A DNA stretch of 23,823 nt from a virus. The translations under genes were made by a program, and so were the position numbers. Below, piece by piece: positions 1 through 23,436 of the stretch (positions within the stretch are counted from its first letter, which is position 1; each line of letters starts with the position of its first letter). Under the pieces are notes generated by a model. It was not told the DNA's origin and ran no database searches. It saw nothing but the letters and a program-made list of their open reading frames with translations. The DNA lies in IMG/VR virus record IMGVR_UViG_3300028843_000271, positions 1 through 23,823 of that record; one strand, 5' to 3'.

Positions 1-50
1 AGAACGAGAGTGGCTGCAATAAGCAGACCGATCATAATTGACTTTTTCAT
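1..50 (-). CDS. Secreted or lipoprotein, N-terminal fragment (cut by window edge)
   Basis: Only the first 16 complete codons are present. They read MKKSIMIGLLIAATLV, a lysine pair followed by a hydrophobic stretch, which is a typical signal peptide start. A good ribosome binding site (AGAGGGG) lies about 10 nt upstream. The start codon follows the stop of the 52-264 gene after a single base, the same TAA-N-ATG spacing seen at other junctions here. Because the next two upstream genes are lipoproteins of the same style, this is probably a further member of the cassette, but the lipobox cysteine, if any, is outside the window. Function is unknown. Confidence 0.6.
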   Translation of the reverse strand, partial: MKKSIMIGLLIAATLV

Positions 51-51
51 A

Positions 52-264
52 TTAACATTTCCCCTCTGCACGACTCTCGACTGAACACTCACCTTCGCTG
101 TTTGTTCCAACAGGTTGAGTGGTTGAATCAGGTAGACTTACCTGAGTGCCTGAACTGCCATCTGCAATAATAGTACCGCTTCCTGATGCGGAGTATGAAT
201 CACCCCCACAGGCCGCAAGTGTGAGTGTGCTGGCAAATACCAAAAAATACATAATTTTCTTCAT
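52..264 (-). CDS. Small predicted lipoprotein (70 aa)
   Basis: The start chosen is the ATG at 264. It follows a strong ribosome binding site (GAGGAAT) and begins MKKIMYFLVFASTLTLAAC, a lysine-led hydrophobic signal peptide ending in the lipobox LAAC (Cys19). A longer frame reaches back to 390 but would run through the upstream lipoprotein gene and bury the signal peptide. The residue after Cys is Gly, not Asp, so outer-membrane sorting is expected under the +2 rule. The mature part is short, rich in Ser, Gly and Thr, and carries two Cys near its end. I recognise no domain. Position after the tail fibre genes allows a lysis (outer-membrane spanin), host-interaction or superinfection-exclusion role; none is shown by sequence. 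Confidence 0.75.
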   Translation of the reverse strand: MKKIMYFLVFASTLTLAACGGDSYSASGSGTIIADGSSGTQVSLPDSTTQPVGTNSEGECSVESRAEGKC

Positions 265-265
265 C

Positions 266-466
266 TTAATTCCTCGTTGCTGAAGTATAGCGAAATTGGG
301 CTGTGTTCTTACACACGACTTTGACTGTGTTCTTATAGACGTTGTCAATGGTGGAGATCCCACCATTGTTCTGACAATATCCTTCAGCACGGGTTATATC
401 GTTCTGAGACATCGTGGTTGCGCATCCAGCTAAAAATAGCAGGGGTGCTATTGCTAGGGTTTTCAT
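266..466 (-). CDS. Small predicted lipoprotein (66 aa)
   Basis: The protein starts MKTLAIAPLLFLAGC, a short signal peptide with a clear LAGC lipobox (Cys15), followed by Ala-Thr-Thr, so an outer-membrane lipoprotein is likely. The ribosome binding site TGAGGAAG is well placed. The mature part has two further Cys (in AEGYCQNN and VVCKNTA) that could form a disulphide. A short KNT-V/A motif occurs twice (KNTVKVVCKNTAQ). Small phage lipoproteins with a Cys pair and an NNGG segment like this are common but unassigned. The stop is separated from the next start by one base, so the genes are translated together. Confidence 0.8.
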   Translation of the reverse strand: MKTLAIAPLLFLAGCATTMSQNDITRAEGYCQNNGGISTIDNVYKNTVKVVCKNTAQFRYTSATRN

Positions 467-580
467 TTTACTTCCTCATAGTTAAAGTTAATGCGCCTGT
501 GGTTGTAGCACAGACGACTTGCTGTTTTATCGCCACAGCCATAGGCGCTTCATGAGGAAGTCTTTACAGAGGACTACCCC
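467..580 (-). other. Intergenic segment with an imperfect hairpin
   Basis: This is the only real gap in the lipoprotein cassette. It contains a long imperfect hairpin at 493-548. GCGCCT at 493-498 pairs with AGGCGC at 543-548, and CTGTGG at 497-502 pairs with CCACAG at 533-538. The two helices share bases, so one must be bulged. No T-tract follows on either strand, so it does not look like an intrinsic terminator. It may stabilise or separate the downstream part of the message. No sigma70-type promoter is visible in it. A 24-codon frame (468-542) lacks a ribosome binding site. Confidence 0.4.
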
Positions 581-748
581 TTAATTCTCTAATACCTTGC
601 CACCGGCATTTGTACATTCTACATGGCTCAGCAAAATCGTCTGTGACTTTTTTACGCAGTTGATAGGCTCGTTACTATCAACTGTAACCGTCTGTGTTAC
701 GCAAGCAGTTACGATTAGCGAGCCGATCACAATCATTACCCATTTCAT
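581..748 (-). CDS. Small predicted lipoprotein (55 aa)
   Basis: This short gene is easily missed. Its ATG (746-748) overlaps the TGA stop of the upstream gene as ATGA, a classic coupled start. It encodes MKWVMIVIGSLIVTAC, a signal peptide with lipobox VTAC (Cys16), followed by a short mature chain with two more Cys (INCVKK and VECTNAGG), and ends ...KVLEN. The residue after the lipobox Cys is Val, so outer-membrane sorting is expected. The mature part resembles the 266-466 product in style: small, a Cys pair, an Asn/Gly-rich end. The two could be diverged duplicates, but similarity is too low to claim by eye. Function is unknown; an o-spanin-like role is possible from size and position. Confidence 0.75.
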   Translation of the reverse strand: MKWVMIVIGSLIVTACVTQTVTVDSNEPINCVKKSQTILLSHVECTNAGGKVLEN

Positions 749-1197
749 GTGTGAATGCCATAATATATAGCCATTTCATCTGCCACTCTCTCTTTCATAG
801 TGGGGCAATGGATAGGCTTGTTTAGCCGGTATGCAATGAAACTCCCAGCACCTACAACAACTCCCGCGATAGGATTAGCGCCAGCAATCATTGCAATATT
901 CCAGCCACTCGCTGCGTATGTCACCGTGTTGATAACCTTCTCAAGTTGTACACCTTCTTCGCACGGCCTAGTATCTGCGTACTTTGTCACACCATACTTA
1001 ACAGGAAGCAATGCTAAACCTAGGGGATTACCTTCTGTAAAACCTTGAGATAATGCAACAGCGGTTGTACCTATATCCACACCTTGAGCTGTAGCGACTG
1101 ACTTACCATAAGAGGTAGCGCAAGCAGAGACAGCCATTGCAACTATAGCAATCACCATCCATCTGGTTGCGTCAATCATTTCAGCTCGGTGCTTCAT
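745..1197 (-). CDS. Predicted lipoprotein with a hydrophobic C-terminal half (150 aa)
   Basis: I chose the ATG at 1197, which overlaps the TGA of the tail gene as ATGA; an upstream in-frame GTG at 1206 would only add three residues. The protein has a charged N-terminus, then TRWMVIAIVAMAVSAC (lipobox VSAC, Cys26). Next comes a stretch around residues 41-58 with the pattern D-x-x-T-T then G-x-x-E-x-N-P, seen in small membrane proteins of the DUF5658 type. A Gly/Ala-rich hydrophobic segment at about 92-124 could form one or two membrane spans. Two further Cys lie at 79 and 131. Possible roles include lysis (holin-like or spanin-like) or envelope modification; none is proven. Confidence 0.75.
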   Translation of the reverse strand: MKHRAEMIDATRWMVIAIVAMAVSACATSYGKSVATAQGVDIGTTAVALSQGFTEGNPLGLALLPVKYGVTKYADTRPCEEGVQLEKVINTVTYAASGWNIAMIAGANPIAGVVVGAGSFIAYRLNKPIHCPTMKERVADEMAIYYGIHT

Positions 1198-3836
1198 AAC
1201 CCCCACTTCACCATTAACTCTTGACGGATAGAAGCCTGCCTGTTCACACTAACTTCTCGATTATACAGCCTGAATTCTGCAAACTCACAATCAGTGAACA
1301 GTGAATAACTGCCTGTAAGTATCCTTGCACCTAATGCAAATAGTTGAGGCTTGATTAATCCTTCATCAGATACGGTATCAGTAACAGTCTGCACACCATT
1401 GACGTAAGCAGTTGCTACACCTGTATCGTAATTAACCGTCATCTCGAATAGTGCGAACTGGTTAGGATCAGGGAATGCTGAAGTCAGAGATAAGCCATCA
1501 CCACCTGCCTCTCTAATCATTATCGCCTTGCCTTGATCGCCTGAACCGCTATGAACCAGAAAACCAAAACCATTAATCGCATCCCAATCATTACCACCAG
1601 TATCAGCGCAGGTAATCAATCCACCATTATTCAGATGTGTTCCATAAGTCATCACAGCGTAGAATGAAAAGTTCCTCATTTCAGGCGTGAATGCACCTGT
1701 CATCACATTGCCAACACCGTCGAACTTAATCGTACCTAATCCGTTCTGGTTGTTGGCGTTGTATGTGGGTGAGTCGGTAGAGGTTAGAAAGCCTAGCGTT
1801 TTTACTGCATCGCCATCGTTTAGTGTAAGTGTTGAGGTATCCAGCGCAATATCAGGGTCAATGATTATCTCGTCATCGGTTAGGTCACCTGTTTGTACTG
1901 TGATATTGCCGATGTTACTATTAATATAGTCGTTTGTCGAAGTACCTGAGCCTATGCTCAAAAATTCCTTAGGGTTTACCAAATCTCCAGTAGCTGCTGG
2001 ATTATCTGCCTTTCCTGCTCCATCTAGCCAAGCGGATATCCCTGTTGTGCGCGAATATCTTACTTTTGTCTCAATACGCCCAGATGTCGGCGCACCTGTT
2101 AATGTTGCGGTCTCTAATCCAGAAGCCGCAGTATTTTTAGCGCAGAATACCCTTGAGACACTCCCCGTATATATTCTAATGCTATCGCCTAAGCCTCCTA
2201 CAAGGTTCAATAGATCTTTATTAGAAGGCCAGTCCCAAGCGTATAAATCGCACGAAAGAATAAAATCATTCACAACACCCGCAGGCCAAGCAACTTGTAC
2301 GTCATCAGCGAGCCTTGTAGCAGCAGCACCGTTGGTGAATATTAGTGGTGTTGGGTATGACTTGAGTTCTGTTTGTGCATATTTTACATATAAGTTAAAT
2401 CCTGTCTGCCCAGTATTCTGATGAAATCCGTTATGAGATGCTAGGCCTGTGGACGCTTCAGTAAATTCAACATCAGTCCATTCCTCACCCACAGTAATGT
2501 CAGGTGATAGTGTTGATGATTGTCCTAATCTTAGTCTAAATGTAGCGATTGTATTTTTTGCCCTCACTCGGACTTTTATTGTGTAAGTATCTGTTGTTAG
2601 CGGTAGATTAGCATCACACGCATACCCACTGGCTGAGCTATTATCAACTGTAATCTCGTGCGAGTTATCAGGGCCTAGTCCTATATATGATCCCCCGTTA
2701 AGATACGCCCATTGGCTAAGATCATGTGAATAGTTGATTAAATTCTCACTCTCCTCCCACACCGCCAGCCTTTTCATAGTCCCGCCAGCATCTACACCTT
2801 CGATGCCGAGGTAAACACCCGCAGCTTCATGCACTACGCCATTAGCATCAACACTATTACCGTTAGTTGTGTCGAAGTATCGAACGGGTATATCGTGGTC
2901 GGAACAGGCTGAGTCGTTGGGGGATACGAATTCTGATACTTCAGATGTTTTAGTGATTGAAAATTCTTTAATGTAGAAATCAACTTTGTCTGCTGTACCC
3001 TGCCCGCCGCGTAGTCTTACGCCGAAGTTAACAGTGCCATCAAACGCGCCATTACTAAACACCGCATATCTAGCCCATTGGTCGGTAATCGTTATATTCT
3101 GACTGCCACCTGTAGGCAGGATTAGTTGCACGACAGCCGATGTTCCGACTGCTAGTTTCATCCAGCAAGAATGGTAAAACTTATCTCCTGTTTTGACTGC
3201 TACCGCATTACGCCTTATCGCAATATCTCCAGTTGCTGTTCCTCCATTAAGATTTAAAACAACACGACTTTGTTGCCCGTCAAAGGTAACGGAATCAATA
3301 GTTGCTGTGCCAGCAATAGAGTCAGTCCAAGGCCTAGCCTCCCCCACTTCGTCTGTATCTCTTAAGTCACTATTGAATGTCGCTAGTTCTTCAACCCGCC
3401 GAGCACCCTCAAACCCAAACTCATGCGGCAATGTCTCAATCACATTATCTTCAAAATCTGTGACGCTACTTGGTGAGTTGCGGGATAGTGTGGCGTGTTG
3501 TTTTAACGGGCTACGGTCGTAGCGGTCAATCAACAAAGGCAGGTAACACATAAAGCTACCGTCTGGTATAGTAGATGAAGCCCCACACCAATAAGACCTC
3601 CATCTGTCTGATAAGTTTTTCCCCGTCACCCCTTGGTCTCCAAGCCAATTGAACCAGCGGTCATTTATGTGACCAGTAGGGACATTGTGGCGGTCCAGAA
3701 AGTCATGTTGGGCTGAACTAAGATTCTTTGATACATCGCCAGATAACTTTAGCCAATCTAAGAATAGATCATCTATGTGACCCTGCCCGAATAAAGACTC
3801 TAGCTGGAACAGCTTACAGTCGTTGACACTAGACAT
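1194..3836 (-). CDS. Tail fibre / receptor-binding protein with lectin-like domains (880 aa)
   Basis: The N-terminus carries two copies of a motif 36 residues apart: GHIDDLFLDWLKLSGDVSKN (19-38) and GHINDRWFNWLGDQGVTGKN (55-74), each followed by an LS-x-x-x-x-x-F/Y segment. Such motifs occur in phage tail adaptor regions. Residues of about 150-295 and 355-495 look like beta-sandwich carbohydrate-binding modules; the second begins ENLINYSHDLSQWAYLNG, typical of CBM-like starts. Residues of about 510-655 and 690-880 look like LamG/concanavalin-type folds. The last ends EFRLYNREVSVNRQ, a signature of LamG domains in tail proteins. The likely role is host glycan recognition at the tail. The start has a GGAG site and overlaps the 3829-4428 gene by 8 nt. 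Confidence 0.8.
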   Translation of the reverse strand: MSSVNDCKLFQLESLFGQGHIDDLFLDWLKLSGDVSKNLSSAQHDFLDRHNVPTGHINDRWFNWLGDQGVTGKNLSDRWRSYWCGASSTIPDGSFMCYLPLLIDRYDRSPLKQHATLSRNSPSSVTDFEDNVIETLPHEFGFEGARRVEELATFNSDLRDTDEVGEARPWTDSIAGTATIDSVTFDGQQSRVVLNLNGGTATGDIAIRRNAVAVKTGDKFYHSCWMKLAVGTSAVVQLILPTGGSQNITITDQWARYAVFSNGAFDGTVNFGVRLRGGQGTADKVDFYIKEFSITKTSEVSEFVSPNDSACSDHDIPVRYFDTTNGNSVDANGVVHEAAGVYLGIEGVDAGGTMKRLAVWEESENLINYSHDLSQWAYLNGGSYIGLGPDNSHEITVDNSSASGYACDANLPLTTDTYTIKVRVRAKNTIATFRLRLGQSSTLSPDITVGEEWTDVEFTEASTGLASHNGFHQNTGQTGFNLYVKYAQTELKSYPTPLIFTNGAAATRLADDVQVAWPAGVVNDFILSCDLYAWDWPSNKDLLNLVGGLGDSIRIYTGSVSRVFCAKNTAASGLETATLTGAPTSGRIETKVRYSRTTGISAWLDGAGKADNPAATGDLVNPKEFLSIGSGTSTNDYINSNIGNITVQTGDLTDDEIIIDPDIALDTSTLTLNDGDAVKTLGFLTSTDSPTYNANNQNGLGTIKFDGVGNVMTGAFTPEMRNFSFYAVMTYGTHLNNGGLITCADTGGNDWDAINGFGFLVHSGSGDQGKAIMIREAGGDGLSLTSAFPDPNQFALFEMTVNYDTGVATAYVNGVQTVTDTVSDEGLIKPQLFALGARILTGSYSLFTDCEFAEFRLYNREVSVNRQASIRQELMVKWGL

Positions 3837-4428
3837 TGTTTTTCTCCATTATTTCCGCCACAGCACTCTTTGCAGATTCTACTGCAGCGGAGGTTATCAC
3901 TTCTATTGCAAATTTTTCAGCTTTTGCTTTTCTGGATGCTATTTCGGCTCTTTCCCTTGCGTTGTTTGCCTCGACTTCATCCTGCTCTGCTTTATATGCC
4001 AATGCCTTTTCATGGCCCAATAAAGCAACAGTCAAGTTCCTCTCAGCATCGTTGGCGTCCACAACGGAAGACACATAATCCATATTGTCCAGTTCCGCAG
4101 TAATGATGTCTTTTTGGTTTTCCATCTTGTCCACTTGATCTATTAACCCTTCGATGGAATCCGATAGATTATCAAGAGCAATATTGTACCTTGATACTGA
4201 ACGTTTGATCATCCTTACTTTAGCTTTCATGGCCTTGCATTCAGATTCCGCAGAAACCAATGAATTTTTGGACTCTATTACCTTTTCACATGCTACTGCA
4301 AGCTCCCCTGTGGGCATGAATCCTTTTACAATATCTTCAGTTGTATGTAGCCTGATAGATATGTCTTTAATGGACATACCATCTAAGTGTAGTGTTCCTA
4401 GAAGTTTTATTTGGTCTTGTCTTAACAT
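3829..4428 (-). CDS. Coiled-coil protein with an HTH-like N-terminus (199 aa)
   Basis: Residues of about 4-37 (QDQIKLLGTLHLDGMSIKDI onward, then SIRLHTTEDIVKGFM) read like a helix-turn-helix: helix, MSIKDIS turn, second helix. The remainder (about 45-190) is charged and helical with long heptad-like stretches (for example KAMKAKVRMIKRSV and NNARERAEIASRKAKAEKF), consistent with a coiled coil. It lies between two tail fibre genes with an AGGA ribosome binding site and overlaps the next gene, so it is part of the late operon. It might be a tail fibre assembly chaperone or an elongated virion protein; the HTH-like part may instead be a non-DNA-binding helical hairpin. I do not recognise a named family. 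Confidence 0.7.
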   Translation of the reverse strand: MLRQDQIKLLGTLHLDGMSIKDISIRLHTTEDIVKGFMPTGELAVACEKVIESKNSLVSAESECKAMKAKVRMIKRSVSRYNIALDNLSDSIEGLIDQVDKMENQKDIITAELDNMDYVSSVVDANDAERNLTVALLGHEKALAYKAEQDEVEANNARERAEIASRKAKAEKFAIEVITSAAVESAKSAVAEIMEKNNV

Positions 4429-13112: not shown

Positions 13113-13556
13113 TTATATCCTCTTAGCCATTATTTTTTCCACGAAAGCATAGCCTAGTCTACTCAATACCGGAGAAAAATCGTGCTGTACTTTAACATGA
13201 TATTGAATTATATCAATCCCTGAACTAGTCATTATGTCTTCAACATGCCTAAATAGCTTAATGCCCAACATTTTTCCTCTATATTCTGGGTCCAAATAAA
13301 CAGCGTCGACGAAGCACTGTAGTGATGTGGAATAGTGCATGTTGGAATGAATGAAGCACGAGCAATAACCCACTATGATTCCTTCATCTCTAGCCACAAA
13401 AAGCTTTAAGTGCCCAGCTTCCTGTAGTTTATCATATGCTTGCCAATTGACGCATAAAGGAAGATCAAAACTGGCCACTTCATCTTTATGGGCTTCTATG
13501 ATAGGGTTCAATTCGCCTATCAATTTTTCAGTTAATCTTTCTTGTTTAATTATCAT
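13113..13556 (-). CDS. GNAT-fold acetyltransferase-like protein, T7 gp13 position (147 aa)
   Basis: Residues of about 52-68 (LFVARDEGIIVGYCSCF) form the beta-hairpin that precedes GNAT motif A, and 84-102 (DAVYLDPEYRGKMLGIKLF) is motif A itself. The acetyl-CoA pyrophosphate loop reads R93-G-K-M-L-G98, so the first glycine of the Q/R-x-x-G-x-G/A consensus is Met. A C-terminal LSRLGYAFVEKIMAK matches the usual GNAT ending. The gene overlaps the tail tubular B gene by ATGA. A GNAT-like protein between gp12- and gp14-type genes is common in T7-like phages, where gp13 aids virion assembly. It may be enzymatically inactive and act structurally. Confidence 0.8.
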   Translation of the reverse strand: MIIKQERLTEKLIGELNPIIEAHKDEVASFDLPLCVNWQAYDKLQEAGHLKLFVARDEGIIVGYCSCFIHSNMHYSTSLQCFVDAVYLDPEYRGKMLGIKLFRHVEDIMTSSGIDIIQYHVKVQHDFSPVLSRLGYAFVEKIMAKRI

Positions 13557-15793
13557 AATCTACTTTGAGACATTTCACCGTATATGCCTAATACTTCTAA
13601 GTCATATGGCAAATCTTGTTTAATATTTATTACTGCATGCAGATCATGTCCTAGGTTGGTAACTTTAACATCTTCTATATCTAGGCCATTGAGCTGATAT
13701 TCGTTTTCAGTAGGTCTTTCCCCATTTATCATAGGGTAGTGACTAGAAGTTACCATCCTTAAATATATCTGATTCCATCTCTTCTTCCAGCTTGGCGTAG
13801 AGCCAGCTTGAGTAGCAAAATCCATAGGTAAAGTTTCCATCTCGCACTCATAATCTATCCCTACTTGGGTGTACTCTGAGAAATAAGGAGGATTATAGGG
13901 ATATGACGGTAGCCCATATACATCACCGTGATCACTTCCAATAGTGCCATCATTATTGGAAGTACCATCATTAACAGTTACCCCTTTTACGAGATTTCCA
14001 TAATAATCTATGGCCGAATACTTGTGATCTATCAACCAAGGCATTTTTATGTCGGCTTTAGCGGATAAATCTAGGTTATAATCATTATCCATAGTAGCCA
14101 AAACAGTAAGCCTAGAATCATTGTCGCCCCAAGCTGATGCTGTTAAGTTGGTACGTATAAGTGCCATAAGCACACTTTCACCATCTACCTTATCTGTGCA
14201 TATGTCAATTATGCCATTGCATGACGTGTGAGTGTGCCAGCCTACAAATTCCATAGAGTCATCGAAAGTAGCGCCAGTAAGCACACCATCATGACGCAGT
14301 ACCCATAATATTTTGTCTGGGTGATTTTGGTACGCAATTCTCTTTATGCTGTTGTCTTTAAATAGGTGTTCGGCCAAGAAGGTTATGTCTTTAGACTTCC
14401 AAGCATTCTCTTCCCATCTCCAGAATGAAGACCTAACTTTAGATGAATTACCTGATACGAATGTTGCCGTGTTTCCTATCTCAACAGCTTGTATGAACGT
14501 AGAAGCGCCATTAGATGATTGTTGTTCCATTTGTATGTCGGATACAGTCAACACACCATCTGCACTAGTTCCTATTAATTCTGCGAATCCAGAACCAAAA
14601 AGGATATTTTTAAGGCCTAACATCCATCTTAGATTTCCTTTCTTGGCAATATCAAATTCGAATGCATCATCTGCAGCTGTCCCTACGGTAAAATCTGTGT
14701 AATTACCTGATTTAGACGCCCAAAACCTTTCTGGGTTCACAGGACATCCTCCTAACCAAAACCTACCTTGGAAAAACGTACCACAAGTGGGAAAATTATC
14801 TATGTCCCAATCAGCCGGAGGACTAGTGAATGTAATATTGCCATATGTAAAAGTTCCATCAGTAATATCATATGTTAAATACTTAACTGGAGCCCCGCTT
14901 TGCAGCATATATATGGTGTTTTCACCTGGCACTTGCAAATATTGCATGTCCAAAGCCAAACGCTTTGGTATAGCAGACCGGATGCGATATGGTTCAGGCC
15001 CACTATTTGTAGGAAAAGCATTTATAGATTTTACTATGAGCCTAGGATTTGAATTATTTTGCTGGCCGCCTTCTATTACTACCTTTATCTGGGGGGCAGT
15101 GTATGACAGAAACGTAGATATTTTTAGCGTTGCCCTTCCAGAGTAATTAAATAGATCCCCTTCATCACCAACAGATTCATCGCCTATGTATACTCCATAT
15201 GTTATGTCTCCATCAGGCATTTCAGTATCAACAACTATGGTCCATTCAGTAGTAGATGTCACAGGGGTGTGTGGTGTTTGGGACATTAAAATCCTATCTA
15301 TTTTAGGATCGTCTGTGGAGAACAGAGTGACTGAACCTACTGCCTGTAGAAATCTAACTGATGGAACTGGGGCAGCGGGTATAGATTTTCCCTCCTCCAC
15401 TACCCAATCTTCTATGCCGTGCCTAAAATTAGTATTAAATAATATCTTTTCTGGTTCTGTGAGATATTCACCATATTTAGTGTTGATTAATATATCGAAA
15501 TATACATCTTTCCCATTTATATCATCTTGAGTTATGTGAGGGAAAAAAACTAAATCGTCGCTTATCCTTAACGATATTATTCTCTGATACTGCTCCATGC
15601 TTTGGTACATCGGTATCTTGGCATCATCACGACTTACAAATCTAAACCCGCCTCTTCTTTTAGCCGATCCCTGAGAAGTGATTATCATGTTCTTAGAGAC
15701 AGATAATGCCTTGTTAGATACTCCTTCTCTTCTCCATAAACGACTAGATACTTCACCTAATGAGAAATTATCCCATATGGGATGTACCTTCAT
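13553..15793 (-). CDS. Tail tubular protein B / nozzle, T7 gp12-like (746 aa)
   Basis: The N-terminus MKVHPIWDNFSLGEVSSRLW, followed by NKALSVSKNMIITSQGSAKR and RGGFRFVSR, is the strong signature of podovirus tail nozzle proteins: few-residue lead, SLGE/ISP segment, and a G-x-x-RR-GGFRF segment. Later TFFQGRFWLGGCPVNPERFW and ASKSGNYTDFTVGTAADDAF, the latter with its D-A-F-E-F continuation, match the conserved central region of this family. Length is close to T7 gp12 (about 790 aa). The protein forms the distal tail tube below the gp11-like ring. Start and stop both overlap neighbours by four bases (ATGA). Confidence 0.93.
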   Translation of the reverse strand: MKVHPIWDNFSLGEVSSRLWRREGVSNKALSVSKNMIITSQGSAKRRGGFRFVSRDDAKIPMYQSMEQYQRIISLRISDDLVFFPHITQDDINGKDVYFDILINTKYGEYLTEPEKILFNTNFRHGIEDWVVEEGKSIPAAPVPSVRFLQAVGSVTLFSTDDPKIDRILMSQTPHTPVTSTTEWTIVVDTEMPDGDITYGVYIGDESVGDEGDLFNYSGRATLKISTFLSYTAPQIKVVIEGGQQNNSNPRLIVKSINAFPTNSGPEPYRIRSAIPKRLALDMQYLQVPGENTIYMLQSGAPVKYLTYDITDGTFTYGNITFTSPPADWDIDNFPTCGTFFQGRFWLGGCPVNPERFWASKSGNYTDFTVGTAADDAFEFDIAKKGNLRWMLGLKNILFGSGFAELIGTSADGVLTVSDIQMEQQSSNGASTFIQAVEIGNTATFVSGNSSKVRSSFWRWEENAWKSKDITFLAEHLFKDNSIKRIAYQNHPDKILWVLRHDGVLTGATFDDSMEFVGWHTHTSCNGIIDICTDKVDGESVLMALIRTNLTASAWGDNDSRLTVLATMDNDYNLDLSAKADIKMPWLIDHKYSAIDYYGNLVKGVTVNDGTSNNDGTIGSDHGDVYGLPSYPYNPPYFSEYTQVGIDYECEMETLPMDFATQAGSTPSWKKRWNQIYLRMVTSSHYPMINGERPTENEYQLNGLDIEDVKVTNLGHDLHAVINIKQDLPYDLEVLGIYGEMSQSRL

Positions 15794-16359
15794 CTCGCAC
15801 CGCCCCTTACGTTAATAAACGTGTCAGATTTAGTCCTTTGAGTCATCTGTTGTCTGCCATCAGACGCTCTAGCGTCATTTATAGCCGACCTATATCCATC
15901 ATCTAAATCTTGTTTTAAAGTTCTAGATTCCGCTATCGCATTGCATATCAGCGACGCTAATTTGTGAATCACAGCTTGTGTGAAAAATGGAGACCACAAT
16001 ATGTCATTCATTTGGTCCCATACATACTTTATTTGCACAGGGTTGGCATTAGTTAAAATAGCCAACCCATCATCATTTGTTACTACATCATACTTTGCTC
16101 TTTTTACCTTGACCAAACGAATATGGTCAGTAGGTAATTGGAATGCATATCCCCATTCAGAAGGGGTTGAAACCAAAGGAATGTCGAGTTCTAAGTCCTT
16201 AGTGGCAAAAGTCCACTCTCCTTCAGACAGCGCTACCCTCCGTGCTTCATCATAATGGATGTTGCACAGTTTAGCATTACGAACATTGTCACTGATAGTG
16301 GCTAATAAAGTACCTCCTACCAGCGACAACGACGAATTATAAATGCTCAGAAGAGACAT
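15790..16359 (-). CDS. Tail tubular protein A / head-tail adaptor, T7 gp11-like (189 aa)
   Basis: MSLLSIYNSSLSLVGGTLLA, then an ARRVALSEGEWTFATKDLEL segment and YAFQLPTDHIRLVKV, match the podovirus gatekeeper/tail tubular A family: an alpha-helical bundle beginning with an N-x-A/S-L-x-x-LG motif, a cysteine or alanine followed by Y-D-E-A-R-x-x-x-L, and a W-x-F-A strand. The C-terminal helices (FFTQAVIHKLASLICNAIAE) are also typical. It forms the ring between portal and nozzle. The start shares one base with the stop of the upstream small gene (TAATG). Confidence 0.93.
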   Translation of the reverse strand: MSLLSIYNSSLSLVGGTLLATISDNVRNAKLCNIHYDEARRVALSEGEWTFATKDLELDIPLVSTPSEWGYAFQLPTDHIRLVKVKRAKYDVVTNDDGLAILTNANPVQIKYVWDQMNDILWSPFFTQAVIHKLASLICNAIAESRTLKQDLDDGYRSAINDARASDGRQQMTQRTKSDTFINVRGGAR

Positions 16360-16541
16360 TACGAGTTCTCGTAATCTTCATCTTCATCTTCATCGGAATC
16401 TTCATCTATCCCCATAAAGTGTCTGCACGTAGCTTCATTGATGCCAAAGACGCGAGACACCTCTTCAGGGTCTGCTCCTTCAGCACCGTACTTTCTGAGC
16501 CTTAGTTGCTCAGAATGGTTTGCTCCAGTTTTACCAGCCAT
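16359..16541 (-). CDS. Small protein with HTH-like segment and acidic tail (60 aa)
   Basis: Residues of about 24-43 (DPEEVSRVFGINEATCRHFM) look like a short helix-turn-helix. The last 15 residues are almost all Asp, Glu and Ser, encoded by a GATGAA-type microsatellite (16371-16394). The gene is joined by TAATG to both capsid and tail tubular A. A small gene in this slot is common in podophages; a head completion, decoration or assembly role is plausible, but the protein is not recognised. The acidic tail could mimic DNA or bind a basic partner; this is speculation. Confidence 0.75.
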   Translation of the reverse strand: MAGKTGANHSEQLRLRKYGAEGADPEEVSRVFGINEATCRHFMGIDEDSDEDEDEDYENS

Positions 16542-17413
16542 TATGTTACCGTATCTGCGAGTTTAAGTCGTACGATCTGCTCGTCTTCAACACGAACTGC
16601 ACCCAGAGTCATGTGTGTGTAAACGCGCCATGCAAAGGAAACGGTCGGGTCTTCTGCAATACGAGCAGTAATATCGCGGTTGATTGACATGCCTAGTGCA
16701 TCTTTGGTAAACGCCAGACAATCAATTTGTGCGCCTGCAGGGGCTAACAGTCGGGTAGACATGATCCACGTGAAACCCATCCAATTAGGCACGATGCCTG
16801 TGGCCGACAATTCATCAAGGCCTCGTCGGACGTAATCCGAACTGGTCTGTTGAGTTGTATTCATCAGTTTGCGAATCTGTTTAGGGCCGATGATCATGAA
16901 CTTCGGAATATCCGGAGTGATGTCATTTTCCATAAACCGTTCTTGAACCTGAGTAACCATGTCAAAGTCGATTTCACCTGTGTAATTGCCAATTTCTTGG
17001 GCCACAGGAAACACGTCATTGCCACCGGAACCATTCAATGCGTCGCCCGTCGCAGCCTTGATGATAATGTCATCGACACCACGATTCATGCTCATTGAGA
17101 GCGCACGTGTAAGGTTGGAATTGGGGTCTACCAGCATTTGAACCGGATCTTCTTGCTCAACCGCATCACCATCATGCCAAGTTTCTGCAAGTGAAACCCT
17201 TCGGGACCAAGACAACTCGGAAACAGGGGTAGGGGTGAGAACCGAAGCTTTCAATGTGGCAGCAGATGTTCCCATGCGCTCCCAATTATGTTTCTCGCTC
17301 GCGTTGCTTTTGACCTGAACGCAACCACGTAGTCGGGTCTGCGTTTGTTGAGCTAAATGCCGGACGTTATTCTCAAACGTCTCGACATAAGCATTGCTAA
17401 TTGTAACAGCCAT
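16541..17413 (-). CDS. Major capsid protein (290 aa)
   Basis: MAVTISNAYVETFENNVRHL, followed by AQQTQTRLRGCVQ, is the start of the gp32/P22-independent capsid family found with Bbp-type podophages. Later SWSRRVSLAETWHDGDAVEQ and VDPNSNLTRALSMSMNRGVD match its E-loop and spine-helix regions, and AFTKDALGMSINRDITARIA, then VYTHMTLGAVRVEDEQIVRL, match the conserved end. Its place after the scaffold, with its own promoter (17530-17558) and a strong AGGAGA ribosome binding site, agrees with high expression. Codon choice looks more host-adapted than in the surrounding genes. The protein is shorter than T7 gp10A, so it is not of the T7 gp10 type in sequence; the HK97 fold is inferred. Confidence 0.9.
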   Translation of the reverse strand: MAVTISNAYVETFENNVRHLAQQTQTRLRGCVQVKSNASEKHNWERMGTSAATLKASVLTPTPVSELSWSRRVSLAETWHDGDAVEQEDPVQMLVDPNSNLTRALSMSMNRGVDDIIIKAATGDALNGSGGNDVFPVAQEIGNYTGEIDFDMVTQVQERFMENDITPDIPKFMIIGPKQIRKLMNTTQQTSSDYVRRGLDELSATGIVPNWMGFTWIMSTRLLAPAGAQIDCLAFTKDALGMSINRDITARIAEDPTVSFAWRVYTHMTLGAVRVEDEQIVRLKLADTVT

Positions 17414-17522
17414 TTCTTTCTCCTAATAAATAAATTAATTTTACTGAGAGGAATCTGAACATTCAGGGTCTCGATCTGAGTGTTACAGGGCTGTTAAATT
17501 AACAGGGAGTCCGTTGTCACCA
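17414..17522 (-). promoter_or_regulatory. Capsid mRNA 5' leader with two palindromes
   Basis: The roughly 110-nt leader between the capsid promoter and the capsid ATG has a perfect 7-bp inverted repeat around one base (CTGTTAAATTAACAG, 17491-17505) and a smaller one (CTGAACATTCAG, 17455-17466). The ribosome binding site AGGAGA is about 8 nt from the ATG in an A/T-rich stretch with little structure. The palindromes may protect the 5' end of the message or be an operator. No T-tract follows, so a terminator is unlikely. Confidence 0.5.
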
Positions 17523-17529
17523 CCCCCTA

Positions 17530-17558
17530 ATTATAACACATGACGGGGCTCGTGTCAA
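17530..17558 (-). promoter_or_regulatory. Sigma70-type promoter for capsid and downstream late genes
   Basis: On the minus strand there is a perfect -35 (TTGACA, 17558-17553), a 17-nt spacer (CGAGCCCCGTCATGTGT) and a perfect -10 (TATAAT, 17535-17530) with an extended TGT. The scaffold stop codon TGA is inside the -35. The spacer starts C-G and ends TGTGT as in the other two copies (22113-22141 and 23364-23392). The promoter gives capsid and tail genes transcription in addition to the operon-long transcript. Expected start is near 17523. Confidence 0.88.
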
Positions 17559-18418
17559 CCCCTCCCAAACGACGAATCGAACGCTTTTTCATCGAACTTT
17601 TCACCTGCCACCACCGATGATAACATAACAACCTTCTTGATTGCCGCAGCATTAGATGGGTCTTCTGGATTATTATATGGGTGATCCTTGTTGTTGCGAA
17701 TCTCCGACAATTGCTGCTGTGCTTCATTGGGGCTCATTGAATCGTGCATTGATTTCTTTCGAGCAAAATTAGTAGTTTCCTCTCCAATCTGGGACCCTAC
17801 ACTATACATCCATTTCAATAAATCAGGGGATGCGTTACCTCCCTTAATAGAGTCAATGACTGATTGCGGAGCGCCGGAAGCTTCAGCAGCAAGAAGAGCA
17901 GACGCTATACGATCATTAGTGGCCATTCCCCATTCTTCCTTCAAGGAAGACATTGCAGCCTTGTGGCTGTCCATCTGGGTCGAAGCCGAATCGATTTCAC
18001 CAGACATGAAATCTTTGACGATATTGGAGTATTGATCCTTAGTAAGCCCGTACTTATGGGCAATGGCCTTAAATCCTTCCATTCTGGACACATTTACCTC
18101 CACCCCTTCAGGGGCTTCAAATTCCGGCATTTCATAGTCTTCATGAGAATTAGGCATGCCAAGAGTCCTGAAAAATTCCTTACTCTGGGTGTCATCGTCA
18201 AAGTTTGGCTTTAGCATCAAATTAGGTGCTCTTTCCATCAACTTAGTGTTGAAGTTATTGACATCTTCGTCGGACGCATCTTCGCTTGGAATCCTTATGG
18301 AATCCCCAATCAGTGATTTGGTTTCAATCAAACCTTTAGCTAAGGCATTGACATCCTCATATCGCTTAATGGTTTCATTTTCTGCGTATTGTTCTTCAAG
18401 GCCTTCAATCGGTGGCAT
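17555..18418 (-). CDS. Capsid assembly scaffolding protein (287 aa)
   Basis: I chose the ATG at 18418 (MPPIEGLEEQYAENETIKRY), which follows a GGAGAATTAAAG ribosome binding site; a TTG six codons earlier (18436) lacks one. The protein is acidic and helical, with EDVNALAKGLIETKSLIGDS and a following IRIPSEDASDEDV segment. That pattern is common in scaffolds of podophages (K-L-E-D/E-A-K-x-L, then I-x-I-P-x-E). The C-terminus (KKVVMLSSVVAGEKFDEKAF) contains a charged helix expected to bind capsid. It sits between portal and capsid, the normal place. Its last codons overlap the capsid promoter. Confidence 0.85.
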   Translation of the reverse strand: MPPIEGLEEQYAENETIKRYEDVNALAKGLIETKSLIGDSIRIPSEDASDEDVNNFNTKLMERAPNLMLKPNFDDDTQSKEFFRTLGMPNSHEDYEMPEFEAPEGVEVNVSRMEGFKAIAHKYGLTKDQYSNIVKDFMSGEIDSASTQMDSHKAAMSSLKEEWGMATNDRIASALLAAEASGAPQSVIDSIKGGNASPDLLKWMYSVGSQIGEETTNFARKKSMHDSMSPNEAQQQLSEIRNNKDHPYNNPEDPSNAAAIKKVVMLSSVVAGEKFDEKAFDSSFGRG

Positions 18419-18611
18419 CTTTAATTCTCCGTTCAATAAATGTTACGAGTTTATGACCGCCTAAGTTTATGTGGGTAGCATAGGGGTCGTTGGGTACGTG
18501 CAAATCGCAATTTTTAAAGCGATCCTGCAGATCTTTAAGTACGCTAGCACCTTCTTCTGTTGAAAACACGCGCGCGTACGGGGTCTTACATTGGGGGGGT
18601 TTCTTGTGCAT
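18405..18611 (-). CDS. Bbp19-like small phage protein (68 aa)
   Basis: I chose the ATG at 18611 because AGAATGAGG precedes it at good spacing; an ATG four codons earlier has no site. The sequence KTPYARVFSTEEGASVLKDL, then ATHINLGGHKLVTFIERRIK, matches the pattern of the Bbp19-like phage domain (PF25181), named from a Bordetella phage: F-x-T-x-x-G-x-x-V/L-x-x-L, then G-x-x-x-V/L-x-F/Y-I. Members lie between portal and scaffold, as here. The gene overlaps the portal end by 26 nt and the scaffold start by 14 nt. Function is not known; it may be an assembly or connector accessory protein. The family call is from memory of the motif. Confidence 0.7.
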   Translation of the reverse strand: MHKKPPQCKTPYARVFSTEEGASVLKDLQDRFKNCDLHVPNDPYATHINLGGHKLVTFIERRIKDATD

Positions 18612-20196
18612 TTTGTGCCTCATTCTGCATTTTTAATAATTCAGCGTCCCTCATTGGCTTCTGCTGAGCTTCCCTTCCTGATCTGATTTCTTTCATAGTG
18701 GCTTCATCATTTATCATGTCAGCCGGAACACCAAGCATTATAGCAGTTCCTAATGCTGCTTCATCATAATTCACGATATCATCTATGTCAGGACGGATTT
18801 CTTTAAGTTGAGCCAAAGCTTGAATCCATTGATTGACAGATTGAACCACGTCTGCTCTTTGTGATCTTGCCAATGGTCCGGTGTACTCAATTATCATTTC
18901 GGCTTCAGATAACTCTGCTGGCATATCTGGAAGTTTTCCTTCACGCATTAAAATTGAAAATGTCCTCCATAACATTGGGTCCAAAAAGTCTACTTTAAGC
19001 CTGCCAAGTGTCGGACCAAGGAGACGTTGCATCAGTTCATATCTAACCTGAACCTCCATCGCGGTCATGGCAGGTGAATTTTTCATCTCCAGTTGGTCTA
19101 CGAAGAATGCTCGATTTATGGCAGCTTGCAGGTTGTTGATCTTCAATTCACCAACATCAAATCTAGCGCGCGACTCGTGAGGCCTGATGTCATCTAATGA
19201 CCTAACTACTGATAATCCTCCCCTACCTAAATCCAAATCAGAAAGAAGTCCGAACTCTGTGACCAATGTAGCAGGGTCCACCACTTTACCTAATGCCTCA
19301 AGTGTCACTTCTGCTATTGAGTTTAATGTGAGTATGTCCGCCAAGCACACAGTAGCCGGAGAAAATCCCCATTGCGATCTCGATGTCTTGCGCCACCTTG
19401 TCACATATGACGGCATTTCGTAATAACCACCGGCTTTTCCGATAACTTCCTTTGATGTGTGCAACACGTACTTCCACCCGTACGCGCGTTTACTGGGAGC
19501 CATTTTCTTGATGCCATTGGCCTCTTTATTTTGCAGATATATGCAAAATACAACCTTGAACTTTCGTTTCTTTGCCGTCGGGTTGCCGTTGATTAAGATT
19601 TCCCTTATTTTATCTGGAAGGTCTGAGAAATCATCCTTTTCGCTCAATTTATCGGCTATCTGAATGGGAGTCCATAGTAATTCTTGGTAAAAGTTTATTA
19701 CTTTACCATCACTGCCTTCGTCAAAATAGAACTCCCTTAGTGGCACAGCCTGATATACCATCTTGTTGTCTTCATACTCTTGGGTCATTATTGCAGTGCC
19801 AAAAGTAGTCAAATCCAGATAGAACTCAGAGGCTTCGAGATTGAAGTTAGAGTTGTGAATGGTTTTGCTGATGATGTTGTTTACCGTCTGAAGCCACTCA
19901 AGAGCGATCTTCATTTTCATCAACTTAGGATCTGCGAACCTCATTTGATGCCACGTCACGGCAGGGTTGGTTAAAGCACCTTGCATGGATGATGAAAGAA
20001 TCTGCGACGCAATGATGGCCGTAGAGTCAAAAATTTCTGGTTTCCGCCAATCTATTTGGTGCTCCGAAAACTGATCCTCAAAAAATTCCCCCCTGAATGG
20101 TGCTACATATCTCTCAATTAGTTCAAATAACTGATCTACAGTTTTTCTATCAGTTACATTCTTATCAAAACTTTCAATAATCTCTTGCGTTCGCAT
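18586..20196 (-). CDS. Portal / head-tail connector protein, T7 gp8-like (536 aa)
   Basis: The protein begins MRTQEIIESFDKNVTDRKTV and proceeds to PEIFDSTAIIASQILSSSMQ with GALTNPAVTWHQ. This is the DSTA...A...LASSLQGALTNP-type signature of the podovirus head-tail connector family (PF12236). AEVTLEALGKVVDPATLVTE and MTAMEVQVRYELMQRLLGPT, with LGRL, match the conserved stem and wing. The length agrees with T7 gp8 (536). It forms the dodecameric gate to which terminase and tail bind. The gene overlaps terL by 23 nt and has an AGAGGAA ribosome binding site in the terL end. Confidence 0.95.
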   Translation of the reverse strand: MRTQEIIESFDKNVTDRKTVDQLFELIERYVAPFRGEFFEDQFSEHQIDWRKPEIFDSTAIIASQILSSSMQGALTNPAVTWHQMRFADPKLMKMKIALEWLQTVNNIISKTIHNSNFNLEASEFYLDLTTFGTAIMTQEYEDNKMVYQAVPLREFYFDEGSDGKVINFYQELLWTPIQIADKLSEKDDFSDLPDKIREILINGNPTAKKRKFKVVFCIYLQNKEANGIKKMAPSKRAYGWKYVLHTSKEVIGKAGGYYEMPSYVTRWRKTSRSQWGFSPATVCLADILTLNSIAEVTLEALGKVVDPATLVTEFGLLSDLDLGRGGLSVVRSLDDIRPHESRARFDVGELKINNLQAAINRAFFVDQLEMKNSPAMTAMEVQVRYELMQRLLGPTLGRLKVDFLDPMLWRTFSILMREGKLPDMPAELSEAEMIIEYTGPLARSQRADVVQSVNQWIQALAQLKEIRPDIDDIVNYDEAALGTAIMLGVPADMINDEATMKEIRSGREAQQKPMRDAELLKMQNEAQNAQETPPM

Positions 20197-21535
20197 GTTT
20201 CCTCTTGCCTCCTACGGCTGTTATGACCTTTGCTCTGTGTCCGGTCAATATTAAATGGTCCAATGTCCCGCCAGATTCCCTGTATCCTTGCGCCAAATAC
20301 TGGAACGCTTTTGCCCCGTGACTTGCCCAATCATGTAGAGGTTTCTGCCTGAATACTTTGTTTTTATCATCATATTGCCTGCGGTAACTAACTAAACAGT
20401 CCCACAACTCTTGGCAATTCTCAGAATTTATTTTTACCTTCTTTAAAAATCTGCGTGAAGCATCAATGCCTTCAACGTCTGACGATTTCGCTACCACATC
20501 GAAGTTAAATCCTAACTTCCTAGCAAACTCACGTCTTGTTATCCCTATTGTGTAGTCGTGTTGGCTAAGATCATGTGGTCCTACGTGGCGGTTATAGATG
20601 TAAGGTTTCTCAGATATGATCTTTATCCACTCTTGCAGGGACTTATTGTTTCCTTTCTCTACATCTATGATGCGGGTATATTCACCGTCATGCTGAGTGA
20701 AGATTATAAAATTATCATCTGACCAGCCTAAGTCCCAAAAAGTTTGAACCGGCTTATCTTCCATCCAAGGATATTCACCGAATCTGCCTTCTTTCTCTAT
20801 AACGGCACATTGGTTTGTGAAATAAGCACCCACCATTCCTGCGTCAAAGGAGCAGTAATACTCCTGTTCCGCCATTAGTGGGTCCATTCCGTCTTCTATT
20901 TCTTCCTCAATATCCTCTTCGGTGAAGATGTGTGTTCCGTCCTCACGGTAAGTATCATCAACAGTAAGTATCTCACAGAACCAACGAGGAGATTTCTTAG
21001 CTGTCTCATATAATTTATGTCCATGATTTTTACCCCTTGGTGTATATATAAATATTGCCCATCCACCGTTTTCTTTCAGCATAGGCCTTATGTAGTCCCA
21101 TGCAGACGGATCTGCGACTGAATATTCTGAGAATATCACACCGTAGGGTGCAGAACCAATGAGTGAATCGTAATTGTCTGAGCCAACACACTGCCATATG
21201 GAGCCACATTTTAGCTCTATCTTCATGTCTGTGTTGTTTATACTGTGCCTTATCTGTTTCGGGAAGGCTTGATCTATGACACGTACTCCTGTGTGAGGAT
21301 TTATGTTCTCCCACACTACTTTCCTAGCATGAGTCTGCGTGGGAAGCATGTGCCAATATGTCGCTATTTTTTGGTGTGCTTGCGCTGCAGTAAAATTTAT
21401 CGACGCTGAATCTTTCCCTGCTCTGCGATGCCAGATACATACAGCCCTCTTTCCTCCTCCAGCACCTAACATGTACTCCATAAATGGAGACTGATGCTGC
21501 CTAGCTGACCAACCATATGGTATCTCAATATCCAT
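20174..21535 (-). CDS. terL: Terminase large subunit (453 aa)
   Basis: An N-terminal ATPase is seen with Walker A as WHRRAGKDS (35-43, Lys41), Walker B as YGVIFSEY (131-138, Glu137; the usual Asp is Ser, as in many of this subfamily), and coupling motif IYTPRGKNHG (163-172). A C-terminal RNase-H-like nuclease follows: Asp268 in TFWDLGWSDDN, Asp322 in GPHDLSQHD, and Asp402 in HDWASHGAKAF. This is the motor that packages DNA into the prohead through the portal. The start shares a base with the terS stop (TAATG) and follows an AGGAC ribosome binding site. Confidence 0.95.
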   Translation of the reverse strand: MDIEIPYGWSARQHQSPFMEYMLGAGGGKRAVCIWHRRAGKDSASINFTAAQAHQKIATYWHMLPTQTHARKVVWENINPHTGVRVIDQAFPKQIRHSINNTDMKIELKCGSIWQCVGSDNYDSLIGSAPYGVIFSEYSVADPSAWDYIRPMLKENGGWAIFIYTPRGKNHGHKLYETAKKSPRWFCEILTVDDTYREDGTHIFTEEDIEEEIEDGMDPLMAEQEYYCSFDAGMVGAYFTNQCAVIEKEGRFGEYPWMEDKPVQTFWDLGWSDDNFIIFTQHDGEYTRIIDVEKGNNKSLQEWIKIISEKPYIYNRHVGPHDLSQHDYTIGITRREFARKLGFNFDVVAKSSDVEGIDASRRFLKKVKINSENCQELWDCLVSYRRQYDDKNKVFRQKPLHDWASHGAKAFQYLAQGYRESGGTLDHLILTGHRAKVITAVGGKRKHANARDY

Positions 21536-22014
21536 TACTGTCCTACTAAATTTTGTATGTTCACGGTCACGGTCACTTTATTATCTGAATCGTCAACCCT
21601 TTGGAATTCCGTAGATTTAGACATGTCCCGAAGGGCTGTAAGTGCAGCATTAGCATTAAATACACGGTCTGTGTGTCCTGCGCCATTTGAAACCAAAGGG
21701 ACACTAGTGTCCCCCATCAGCATTGGCATCAACCTCACATAATGCTGTTCTATGTAAGATTCGGTGATCATGTTGTGGGTCTGGTTTTCTTTCAACTCTT
21801 TTAATATGTACGCGCGTACGCGAGAATCTACTGACAACTTCCGACCCAATGAGGAAACAATGCCGACTTCCTTAGAGGCTCTACGGTAGTTATAGTCTAC
21901 CATGTAACTTAACGCAAACGCAGATTCCTGTAATGTCAGATCGCTGGCAAGAGCCAAGGGGCTGTCTTTTTGCACTGTCGGATAAGCTTTTGCTGTATTG
22001 TCTGTACTAGGCAT
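21535..22014 (-). CDS. terS: Terminase small subunit (159 aa)
   Basis: The position directly before terL and the first gene after the late promoter make this the DNA-recognition subunit. Residues of about 25-75 (SDLTLQESAFALSYMVDYNY, then RRASKEVGIVSSLGRKLSVD and SRVRAYI) form a typical TerS HTH: a first helix with L-T-x-x-E/Q-x-x-F-x-x-x-Y, then a second HTH helix with A-S-x-x-x-G and R-V-x-x-x-I. A helical middle follows, with a C-terminal VTVTVNIQNLVG strand likely for the oligomer crown. No strong ribosome binding site is seen before the ATG at 22014, which is unusual here; it may depend on coupling with the overlapping frame at 21936-22106. Confidence 0.85.
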   Translation of the reverse strand: MPSTDNTAKAYPTVQKDSPLALASDLTLQESAFALSYMVDYNYRRASKEVGIVSSLGRKLSVDSRVRAYILKELKENQTHNMITESYIEQHYVRLMPMLMGDTSVPLVSNGAGHTDRVFNANAALTALRDMSKSTEFQRVDDSDNKVTVTVNIQNLVGQ

Positions 22015-22106
22015 GTGTGTGATTTCGTTAAGGCCATATTCAGCTGTTGCTCCCTATAGAACAAGTACGCTAAATCTCCGGCATGTTTAGGGTCGAATGA
22101 ATCCAT
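21936..22106 (-). CDS. Possible leaderless leader ORF overlapping terS (56 aa)
   Basis: The ATG at 22106 is exactly seven bases from the last base of the late -10 (22113), so the transcript may begin at its A and be translated without a leader. It starts MDSFDPKHAGDLAYLFYREQ, which looks protein-like, then runs into the terS gene in another frame. It would end 79 bases after the terS start, so it could help open the terS start region. No homologue is recognised, and the shared part must encode terS. The call is speculative. Confidence 0.3.
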   Translation of the reverse strand: MDSFDPKHAGDLAYLFYREQQLNMALTKSHTCLVQTIQQKLIRQCKKTAPWLLPAI

Positions 22107-22112
22107 ACCACG

Positions 22113-22141
22113 ATTATAACACACGAACGGTCACGTGTCAA
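22113..22141 (-). promoter_or_regulatory. Late operon sigma70-type promoter
   Basis: On the minus strand there is a perfect -35 (TTGACA, 22141-22136), a 17-nt spacer (CGTGACCGTTCGTGTGT), and a perfect -10 (TATAAT, 22118-22113) with an extended TGT. It precedes terS by about 90 bases and is the start of the whole leftward operon. Its -35 lies three bases from the edge of the 13-bp repeat array. The TGACAC...GTGTTA dyad (12-nt centre) overlaps both hexamers, so a bound protein could occlude polymerase. Confidence 0.9.
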
Positions 22142-22144
22142 GCG

Positions 22145-22352
22145 GATCGTGCTATATGATCGTGCTATATGATCGTAATATATGATCGTAATATATGATC
22201 GTGCTATATGATCGTGCTATATGATCGTAATATATGATCGTAATATATGATCGTGCTATATGATCGTAATATATGATCGTGCTATATGATCGTGCTATAT
22301 GATCGTGCTATATGATCGTGCTATATGATCGTAATATATGATCGTGCTATAT
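22145..22352. repeat. Tandem array of 16 x 13-bp GATC repeats
   Basis: Sixteen uninterrupted 13-bp units occur in two forms, A (GATCGTGCTATAT, ten copies) and B (GATCGTAATATAT, six copies), in the order AABBAABBABAAAABA. A degenerate copy (GATCGTATTAT, 22360-22370) follows after seven bases. Each unit starts with GATC, so there are 17 GATC sites in about 220 bases. Units are A/T-rich at one end. The array begins three bases from the late -35 and separates the leftward and rightward genes. Comparable 13-bp GATC-led repeats occur at bacterial oriC, so an origin or a methylation-sensitive control array is possible. Confidence 0.95.
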
Positions 22353-22370
22353 GGCATCGGATCGTATTAT

Positions 22371-22578
22371 TTCCGAAAACCAAAATTTGAGGTGAGAAGG
22401 GTCCCCCCCGCCCCCGCCATTTGCGCGTTTCGTCGGGTGGTGGGGTATTTTCGGCTGTTCCCCAACACCGAAAGCTGTTCCCGTTTTTCGGCCCGTCCCG
22501 ACGGGCGTTCCCAAACGGTCGGAGCGTTCCCCAACGGCAGATATCTACACTATTTTGTCCATCTATATACACGGAGAT
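22371..22578. other. Non-coding GC-rich control region
   Basis: No convincing gene is seen on either strand. The C-rich tract at 22403-22417 (CCCCCCCGCCCCCGC) gives a G-rich opposite strand. CCGAAAA (22374-22380) and TTTTCGG (22448-22454) could pair around it. A perfect 6-bp hairpin, GCCCGT-CCCG-ACGGGC, lies at 22491-22506. GTTCCCCAAC-type decamers occur at 22457, 22507 and 22526. Base composition is clearly richer in G+C than the late genes. The region is likely regulatory or part of an origin. Confidence 0.6.
22457..22535. repeat. GTTCCCCAAC decamer cluster
   Basis: Two exact copies of GTTCCCCAAC (22457-22466, 22526-22535), one variant GTTCCCAAAC (22507-22516) and a half-match GTTCCCGTTT (22476-22485) lie within 80 bases upstream of the first rightward promoter. 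Further copies are at 23335-23344 (GTTCCCCAAT, 19 bases before another promoter) and 23744-23753 (exact). The motif has a GTT-N4-AAC dyad, as an operator would. I saw no exact copies in the late genes. Confidence 0.6.
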
Positions 22579-22608
22579 ATGGCGCAATGGCGCAGTCTGT
22601 GGTATAAT
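22579..22608 (+). promoter_or_regulatory. Extended -10 promoter for the 22668 gene
   Basis: TATAAT at 22603-22608 is preceded by TGG (22600-22602), an extended -10. The -35 place is poor (TGGCGC, 22580-22585, 17-nt spacer) and lies in a direct repeat of ATGGCGCA (22579-22586, 22587-22594). An activator could bind this repeat. The start would be near 22615, about 53 bases before the ATG at 22668. It differs from the three TTGACAC-type promoters. Confidence 0.55.
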
Positions 22609-22667
22609 GGTTCTGTAGTCGAGGCACACTCGCTGAGACACAAATCGCCCAACGAGGGGCAAACACG

Positions 22668-23006
22668 ATGACAAACAAGAAAACCGAAACCGAAACCGAA
22701 ACTCCCAAAGCAACAATGGCGAGCCACCTGCGCAAATACCGCGCCAACTACATCAAAACACACGGGTACAACCAGCAGGGTTCTCTGGACAACGGAGACA
22801 AGCTGGCAACAATTCTCCGTCCTCTCGATCCTGATCGCGTTGTGGCACTGGCCGAGAAGGTGCTGGGAAAGAAGAAAGGCGAGCTGGCAACACGCTACGA
22901 GCACCTTAACAAGGGCCAACGCCGAATGAACAGCGGAAACCTCCTGCGCAATGCGATCAAGAGGGGAGACACCACCGCAACAGCAATCAAGAAGGCAATC
23001 GCCTAA
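22668..23006 (+). CDS. Basic phage protein of unknown function (112 aa)
   Basis: First rightward gene. The ATG at 22668 follows GAGGGG at about 10 nt. The first residues (TETETET) come from a repeated ACCGAA hexamer, so the conserved part may start at Met17 (MASHLRKYRANYIKTHGYNQ). It then has DNGDKLATILRPLDPDRVVA and ends with RYEHLNKGQRRMNSGNLLRN. The LN-x-GQ-x-RMN-x-GN-x-x-R segment recurs, as I recall, in small uncharacterised phage proteins. It is basic and helical, so nucleic acid binding is plausible. G/C-rich codons set it apart from late genes. A hairpin terminator follows directly. Confidence 0.85.
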   Translation: MTNKKTETETETPKATMASHLRKYRANYIKTHGYNQQGSLDNGDKLATILRPLDPDRVVALAEKVLGKKKGELATRYEHLNKGQRRMNSGNLLRNAIKRGDTTATAIKKAIA

Positions 23007-23015
23007 CAACAACCA

Positions 23016-23039: not shown

Positions 23040-23051
23040 CAGGACAAGAAC

Positions 23052-23392: not shown

Positions 23393-23436
23393 GGAGAGCA
23401 CCCAAACCAAACAGACAACCCGACGCATGTGACAAG

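Follow-up and report, generated by a model that had tools for sequence, protein, structure and literature searches.

Small lipoproteins encoded singly by phages are known to jam receptors in the outer membrane of the host or to fuse its membranes at lysis. T5 Llp, Cor and Rtp45 are small superinfection-exclusion lipoproteins, the genes of which directly adjoin the receptor-binding tail gene (PMC9586334; PMC12685063). Llp and Cor have an intramolecular disulphide in common (PMC9586334; PMC12685063), and Rtp45 blocks LptD (PMC12685063). In the records that we inspected, N15 cor and rtp45 adjoin tail genes, and the sequences of N15 Cor, Rtp45 and an Llp contain two further cysteines each. A different type of phage lipoprotein, the unimolecular spanin, combines an N-terminal lipobox with a C-terminal transmembrane domain (PMC6139136). 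Here we describe a phage contig in which four lipobox genes follow one another directly behind a tail fibre gene.

A podovirus late region ending in lipoprotein genes

The window (the whole stretch of 23,823 bases analysed here) is an entire IMG/VR record. Profile and sequence matches across its length identify the minus strand as a podovirus late region. It encodes a small terminase (21535-22014), a large terminase (20174-21535), a portal (18586-20196), a protease-like gene (17555-18436), the major capsid protein (16541-17413), tail tube proteins (15790-16359 and 13553-15793), a GNAT-like gene (13113-13556) and internal virion proteins (to 6509), followed by further tail genes and then the fibre. 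The portal is 43-45% identical to those of Enhodamvirus-type Vibrio phages, which are among the best named-phage matches; the corresponding figures against Alteromonas phage ZP6, in which the gene order is the same, are 47% for the large terminase and 51% for the capsid protein. The window is probably a fragment of a podovirus of about 40 kb related to Alteromonas phage ZP6 and Enhodamvirus VP5. Since ZP6 and Enhodamvirus-type genomes measure about 38-41 kb, some 15 kb (a third) is probably absent from it. An exact 28-base pattern, searched in viral contigs for a leftward extension past the window end, was unmatched, and a contig from another assembly (L002) overlaps the window at 13883-22167 only. 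A search of bacterial genomes with the major capsid protein profile revealed no prophage relative.

Positions 22145 to 22353 hold 16 tandem copies of a 13-bp unit (GATCGTGCTATAT / GATCGTAATATAT), which separate the terminase genes from a GC-richer plus-strand region. Given that the L002 match ends there (22167), this array may mark a junction in the assembly or be an origin-like repeat. The region beyond it (22400-23823) is about 53% GC, with a positive AT skew and plus-strand ORFs (22668-23006), and could be an early region or a chimeric end. In several relatives, PurZ-like proteins (VDLQFGSTGKG) adjoin the late-operon end (L176:3374-4420, L200:13009-14046, L208:12413-13480), and likewise in ZP6. 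The lineage may thus use 2-aminoadenine DNA, as may the phage of the window by way of its absent part.

The fibre gene (1194..3836, minus strand, 880 aa) lies immediately upstream of the lipoprotein genes. Its product exhibits a weak Laminin_G_3 match (E-value 5.9e-6, under the curated cut-off), shares its N-terminal domain with a fibre gene of the relative L005 (E-value 1e-7), and is a receptor-binding candidate. The N-terminal ~90 residues form a short repeated domain around HINDRWFNWLGDQGVTGKNLSDRWRSYW. In relatives, genes that encode fibres or stand alone also begin with a domain of the HINDRWFNWLGDQGVTGKNLSDRWRSYW type (L005:2706-4163, L195:18918-19196, L196:1529-2116).

Directly behind the fibre, and as an earlier note on this DNA had read it, four consecutive minus-strand genes encode lipobox proteins: 745-1197 (VSA/C), 581-748 (VTA/C), 266-466 (LAG/C) and 52-264 (LAA/C). 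This run of four tandem lipobox ORFs is a real feature of the DNA. A strict lipobox scanner applied to the entire window returned, besides these four, a single antisense ORF that is a false positive, and dinucleotide shuffles of 1-1197 (n=300) contained at most one lipobox ORF each (mean 0.02). The start of 745-1197 overlaps the fibre stop, 581-748 overlaps 745-1197 by ATGA, and good Shine-Dalgarno sequences precede 266-466 and 52-264. All four ORFs score higher in codon usage than the opposite-strand ORFs at 597-770, 694-825 and 800-1048; the margin is clear for 745-1197 (0.156 nats per codon) and weak for the three short ORFs (0.03-0.04).

Apart from the lipidated cysteine, each mature chain contains two more and no others. 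With cysteine as frequent as in the remaining proteins of the window (0.63%), the probability of at least two further cysteines in all four is about 8e-6. This uniformity supports export to an oxidising compartment with one disulphide in each protein; it does not identify a function, two cysteines being common in small exported proteins. The signal peptide is the sole hydrophobic stretch in three of the four proteins, and they have little mature sequence in common. The earlier note had also stated that none carries Asp at +2, and indeed this position is occupied by Ala, Val, Ala and Gly. That such proteins go to the outer membrane is a rule from E. coli; lipidation and outer-membrane location of the four proteins are predictions from their sequences. 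Defence-system libraries contained no match, and a search of solved structures returned nothing relevant. Since the proteins are very short, homology searches have low power. A pattern scan gave no convincing early promoter, with fewer promoter-like sites than in shuffled sequences.

Four dissimilar proteins and a hairpin

Lipoprotein 1 (745..1197, 150 aa) has a mature part of 125 aa with its two further cysteines. A second hydrophobic, Gly-rich segment lies at about residues 100-121 (hydropathy peak 1.61 at 103-121), with about 29 residues past it. With this segment the protein may be integral to a membrane, and among the four lipoboxes this one is the least secure. It has no PHROG match and no Pfam match over the cut-off; a DUF5658-like motif fell under the cut-off and was discarded. 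No homologue was found by tblastn in viral contigs, genome contigs, phage records and 50 related records.

Lipoprotein 2 (581..748, 55 aa) also has two further cysteines. Its frame stays open for 17 codons past the TAA (527-580, minus strand; GVVLCKDFLMKRLWLWR up to the next stop), running into the hairpin described below. The tail encoded past the stop (GVVLCKDF...) is similar to the C-terminal half of 266-466 (shuffle p 0.007, for a comparison chosen post hoc). To judge from this resemblance, 581-748 may be a truncated paralogue of the 266-466 family, or its stop codon may be read through.

Lipoprotein 3 (266..466, 66 aa) exhibits a C-x3-GG-x15-C motif and belongs to phrog_6873, a phage lipoprotein family with no assigned function that is matched by none of the other three proteins. 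The full-length protein matches at an E-value of 1.1e-6 and its mature part by itself at 0.001; since the match survives removal of the signal peptide, we take the membership as real. Other matches were rejected. A Cor-profile match (E-value 0.074) was gone without the signal peptide, as was a spanin-profile match (phrog_6073, E-value 0.011) for the mature protein, and a T2 match (E-value 6) is due to chance, being antisense to an annotated gene. No homologue was found by tblastn in phages or plasmids at E-value≤1.

Structure prediction of the chains, proposed in the earlier note, gave a usable picture for one of the two proteins modelled. The AF2 model of 745-1197 is uninformative (pLDDT 35), and the single-sequence AF2 model of 266-466 (pLDDT 69) consists of a helix and three strands. 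Foldseek with the latter gave best viral matches at E-values of 0.016-0.2 and no PDB match under 0.9. The sixth-ranked structure, at a weak E-value of 0.19, comes from the T5-like phage FFH1; it is a small lipoprotein whose cysteines are similarly arranged, and agreement in length and lipobox led us to take it for ORF65 of the FFH1 record. Two relatives encode small exported proteins with a C-x3-GG-x-C pattern, at L192:15126-15410 (within the lysis cassette of G008) and at L178:1498-1683 (beside the lipoprotein of G013). They are possibly related to 266-466, to which their similarity is weak.

Lipoprotein 4 (52..264, 70 aa) has a Gly/Ser/Thr-rich mature part with its two cysteines near the C-terminus. 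A fifth gene starts behind it (1..50, minus strand) with a good Shine-Dalgarno upstream. The earlier note had counted its product as a fifth secreted protein. Only 16 residues, hydrophobic and signal-like (MKKSIMIGLLIAATLV), precede the contig end, and they would suit a lipoprotein, a secreted protein that is not lipidated, or a membrane protein, for instance a holin.

The sole sizeable gap of the cassette, between 581-748 and 266-466, holds an RNA hairpin (464..562, minus strand, -38.2 kcal/mol). Its outer stem of 11 bp pairs the Shine-Dalgarno of 266-466 (AUGAGGAAG) with the upstream CUUCCUCAU, and the inner stem is a weak terminator-like site by pattern scan. The hairpin is the most stable among 23 start-site regions tested in the window, and none of 200 shuffles was equally stable (z -6.32). 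Neither a match in Rfam nor DNA related to this stretch was found. Possible roles of the hairpin are a delay in 266-466 translation, recognition by RNase III and attenuation of transcription.

The same slot in related phages

We read 80 loci related by the capsid protein and 80 related by an internal protein, at the late-operon end where it was covered. The slot behind the fibre is variable. In G008 (L192:14363-16285) it holds an amidase (Pfam Amidase_2) together with two holin-like proteins and Rz and Rz1 genes that overlap, the secreted C-x3-GG-x-C protein mentioned above sitting within this lysis cassette; in G010 an M15 endolysin is flanked by membrane proteins on both sides, G030 has a lysozyme-like gene, and G039 an M15 endolysin nearby. 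G017, G013, G021, G040 and G041 have a single small lipoprotein each in the slot, as has L005, where it is placed between two fibre genes. The slot of G011 and G024 holds a larger secreted protein, and that of G029 and G038 nothing evident. The single post-fibre lipoproteins of G017, G013, G021, G040 and L005 are like those described here in operon position, size class and lipobox, but there is one per genome and the mature sequences are unrelated; in G013 the lipoprotein is accompanied by one non-lipidated cysteine protein.

Over all loci retrieved, 3.55 Mb in total with some redundancy and with reference phages included, the lipobox scanner returned 39 ORFs, no two of which were neighbours. 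The scanner is strict and undercounts, missing for example the L005 gene. From the survey and these counts together, one lipoprotein in the slot is ordinary for the lineage and four in a row are unusual. No close relative extends over the slot, and none with the whole four-gene set was found in the collections.

The lysis genes in the slot of G008, G010, G030 and G039 lend some weight to a lysis role, one of the functions that the earlier note had suggested. The lipoproteins would then be the outer-membrane end of a lysis cassette running beyond the contig end, with lipoprotein 1 as a unimolecular spanin, or a short one as an o-spanin with its i-spanin to the left. The protein of 745-1197 indeed resembles the T1 gp11-type unimolecular spanin in its layout of a lipobox and one further, C-proximal hydrophobic segment (PMC6139136), but differs in the long tail of some 29 residues past that segment and in matching no spanin-family profile. 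Likewise, the Rz1 o-spanin of G008 is a small lipoprotein in the same slot behind the fibre, but there it has an overlapping i-spanin, an amidase and holins, whereas in the 23.8-kb window no gene was recognised as a holin, endolysin or i-spanin. In particular, an i-spanin (N-terminal transmembrane segment plus coiled coil) was not seen at 1-4428 of the window, where the contig ends inside the cassette; all three partners could lie in the absent third of the genome. The cassette proteins include no proline-rich o-spanin, the phrog_6073 match of 266-466 rests on the signal peptide, and its match to G008 is no evidence for a spanin, the Rz1 being aligned mostly over the signal peptide. One o-spanin moreover suffices, so that four are not needed. 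The slots of G008 and G010 have the holin, endolysin and i-spanin parts, and a lipoprotein once at most, as an Rz1 gene that overlaps Rz. A multi-part lysis system thus has the slot of its relatives in its favour and lacks its defining partners in the window, and we consider a lysis role, the chief competitor of the receptor-blocking interpretation given below, possible but somewhat unlikely.

The same variability of the slot, whose content ranges from lysis genes through one lipoprotein or a larger secreted protein to nothing, would also suit a mixture of accessory genes of unrelated function or under weak selection in a tolerant place. The dissimilar mature sequences, the family-like tail beyond the stop of 581-748, which may make this gene a truncated copy from the 266-466 family, and the weak codon-usage support for the three short ORFs all fit such a mixture. 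Four intact lipoboxes and a uniform cysteine count, however, suggest selection for export, and the overlapping starts, good Shine-Dalgarno sequences and strong hairpin suggest that expression control is maintained; we regard a mere mixture as unlikely. Very improbable, in our judgement, are virion-associated or assembly lipoproteins acting with the fibre, or inner-membrane proteins with a lipobox-like first transmembrane segment (mainly 745-1197). An operon in common with the fibre, whose stop the first gene overlaps, and the second hydrophobic segment of 745-1197 speak for them; on the other side, known tail proteins are not Sec-exported and three of the four proteins are hydrophobic at the signal peptide only.

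Comparison with receptor-blocking lipoproteins

Most likely the cassette modifies the outer envelope of the host, and perhaps it blocks receptors against further infection. Our leading, still tentative interpretation is an accessory slot for envelope lipoproteins that has expanded, with receptor blocking like that of Llp and Cor as its function. Behind the fibre, the late operon would close with a variable slot that accommodates accessory genes for small exported proteins and has expanded here to four or more lipoproteins. Exported, lipidated and carried to the outer membrane, each would present a small periplasmic domain with one possible disulphide. At least one of them, 266-466 being the best candidate, would bind the outer-membrane receptor used by the neighbouring fibre. 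Superinfection would thereby be stopped, and progeny would be kept off receptor-bearing debris after lysis. The multiplicity of lipoproteins might serve several receptors or envelope partners. A more specific, combinatorial version, in which four or more unrelated outer-membrane lipoproteins each jam a different receptor or translocon and at least one is translation-gated until late infection by the hairpin hiding its Shine-Dalgarno, has in our view only a slim chance of being correct.

A tandem set of four lipoproteins would suggest that some podoviruses hit several envelope targets at once and would supply small, testable inhibitors of outer-membrane proteins. Should the set be a mixed one instead, the end of the late operon would still be marked as a place for envelope-acting genes.

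Receptor blocking had also been suggested in the earlier note, and the comparison with Llp, Cor and Rtp45 sustains it in architecture but not in sequence. Those three are single genes, whereas four are found here, and Llp is expressed early, whereas the cassette stands at the end of a late operon. No similarity to Llp, Cor or Rtp45 was detected for the three short proteins (shuffle p 0.13-0.84). Because size, position and cysteines match but sequence does not, and because no sign of an early promoter is present, we hold receptor blocking as a tentative reading and do not file the cassette under the Llp/Cor family. The likeness lies in the plan of the locus: in both cases small lipobox proteins with two extra cysteines are encoded beside a tail gene that binds the receptor or, as here, is a candidate for doing so.
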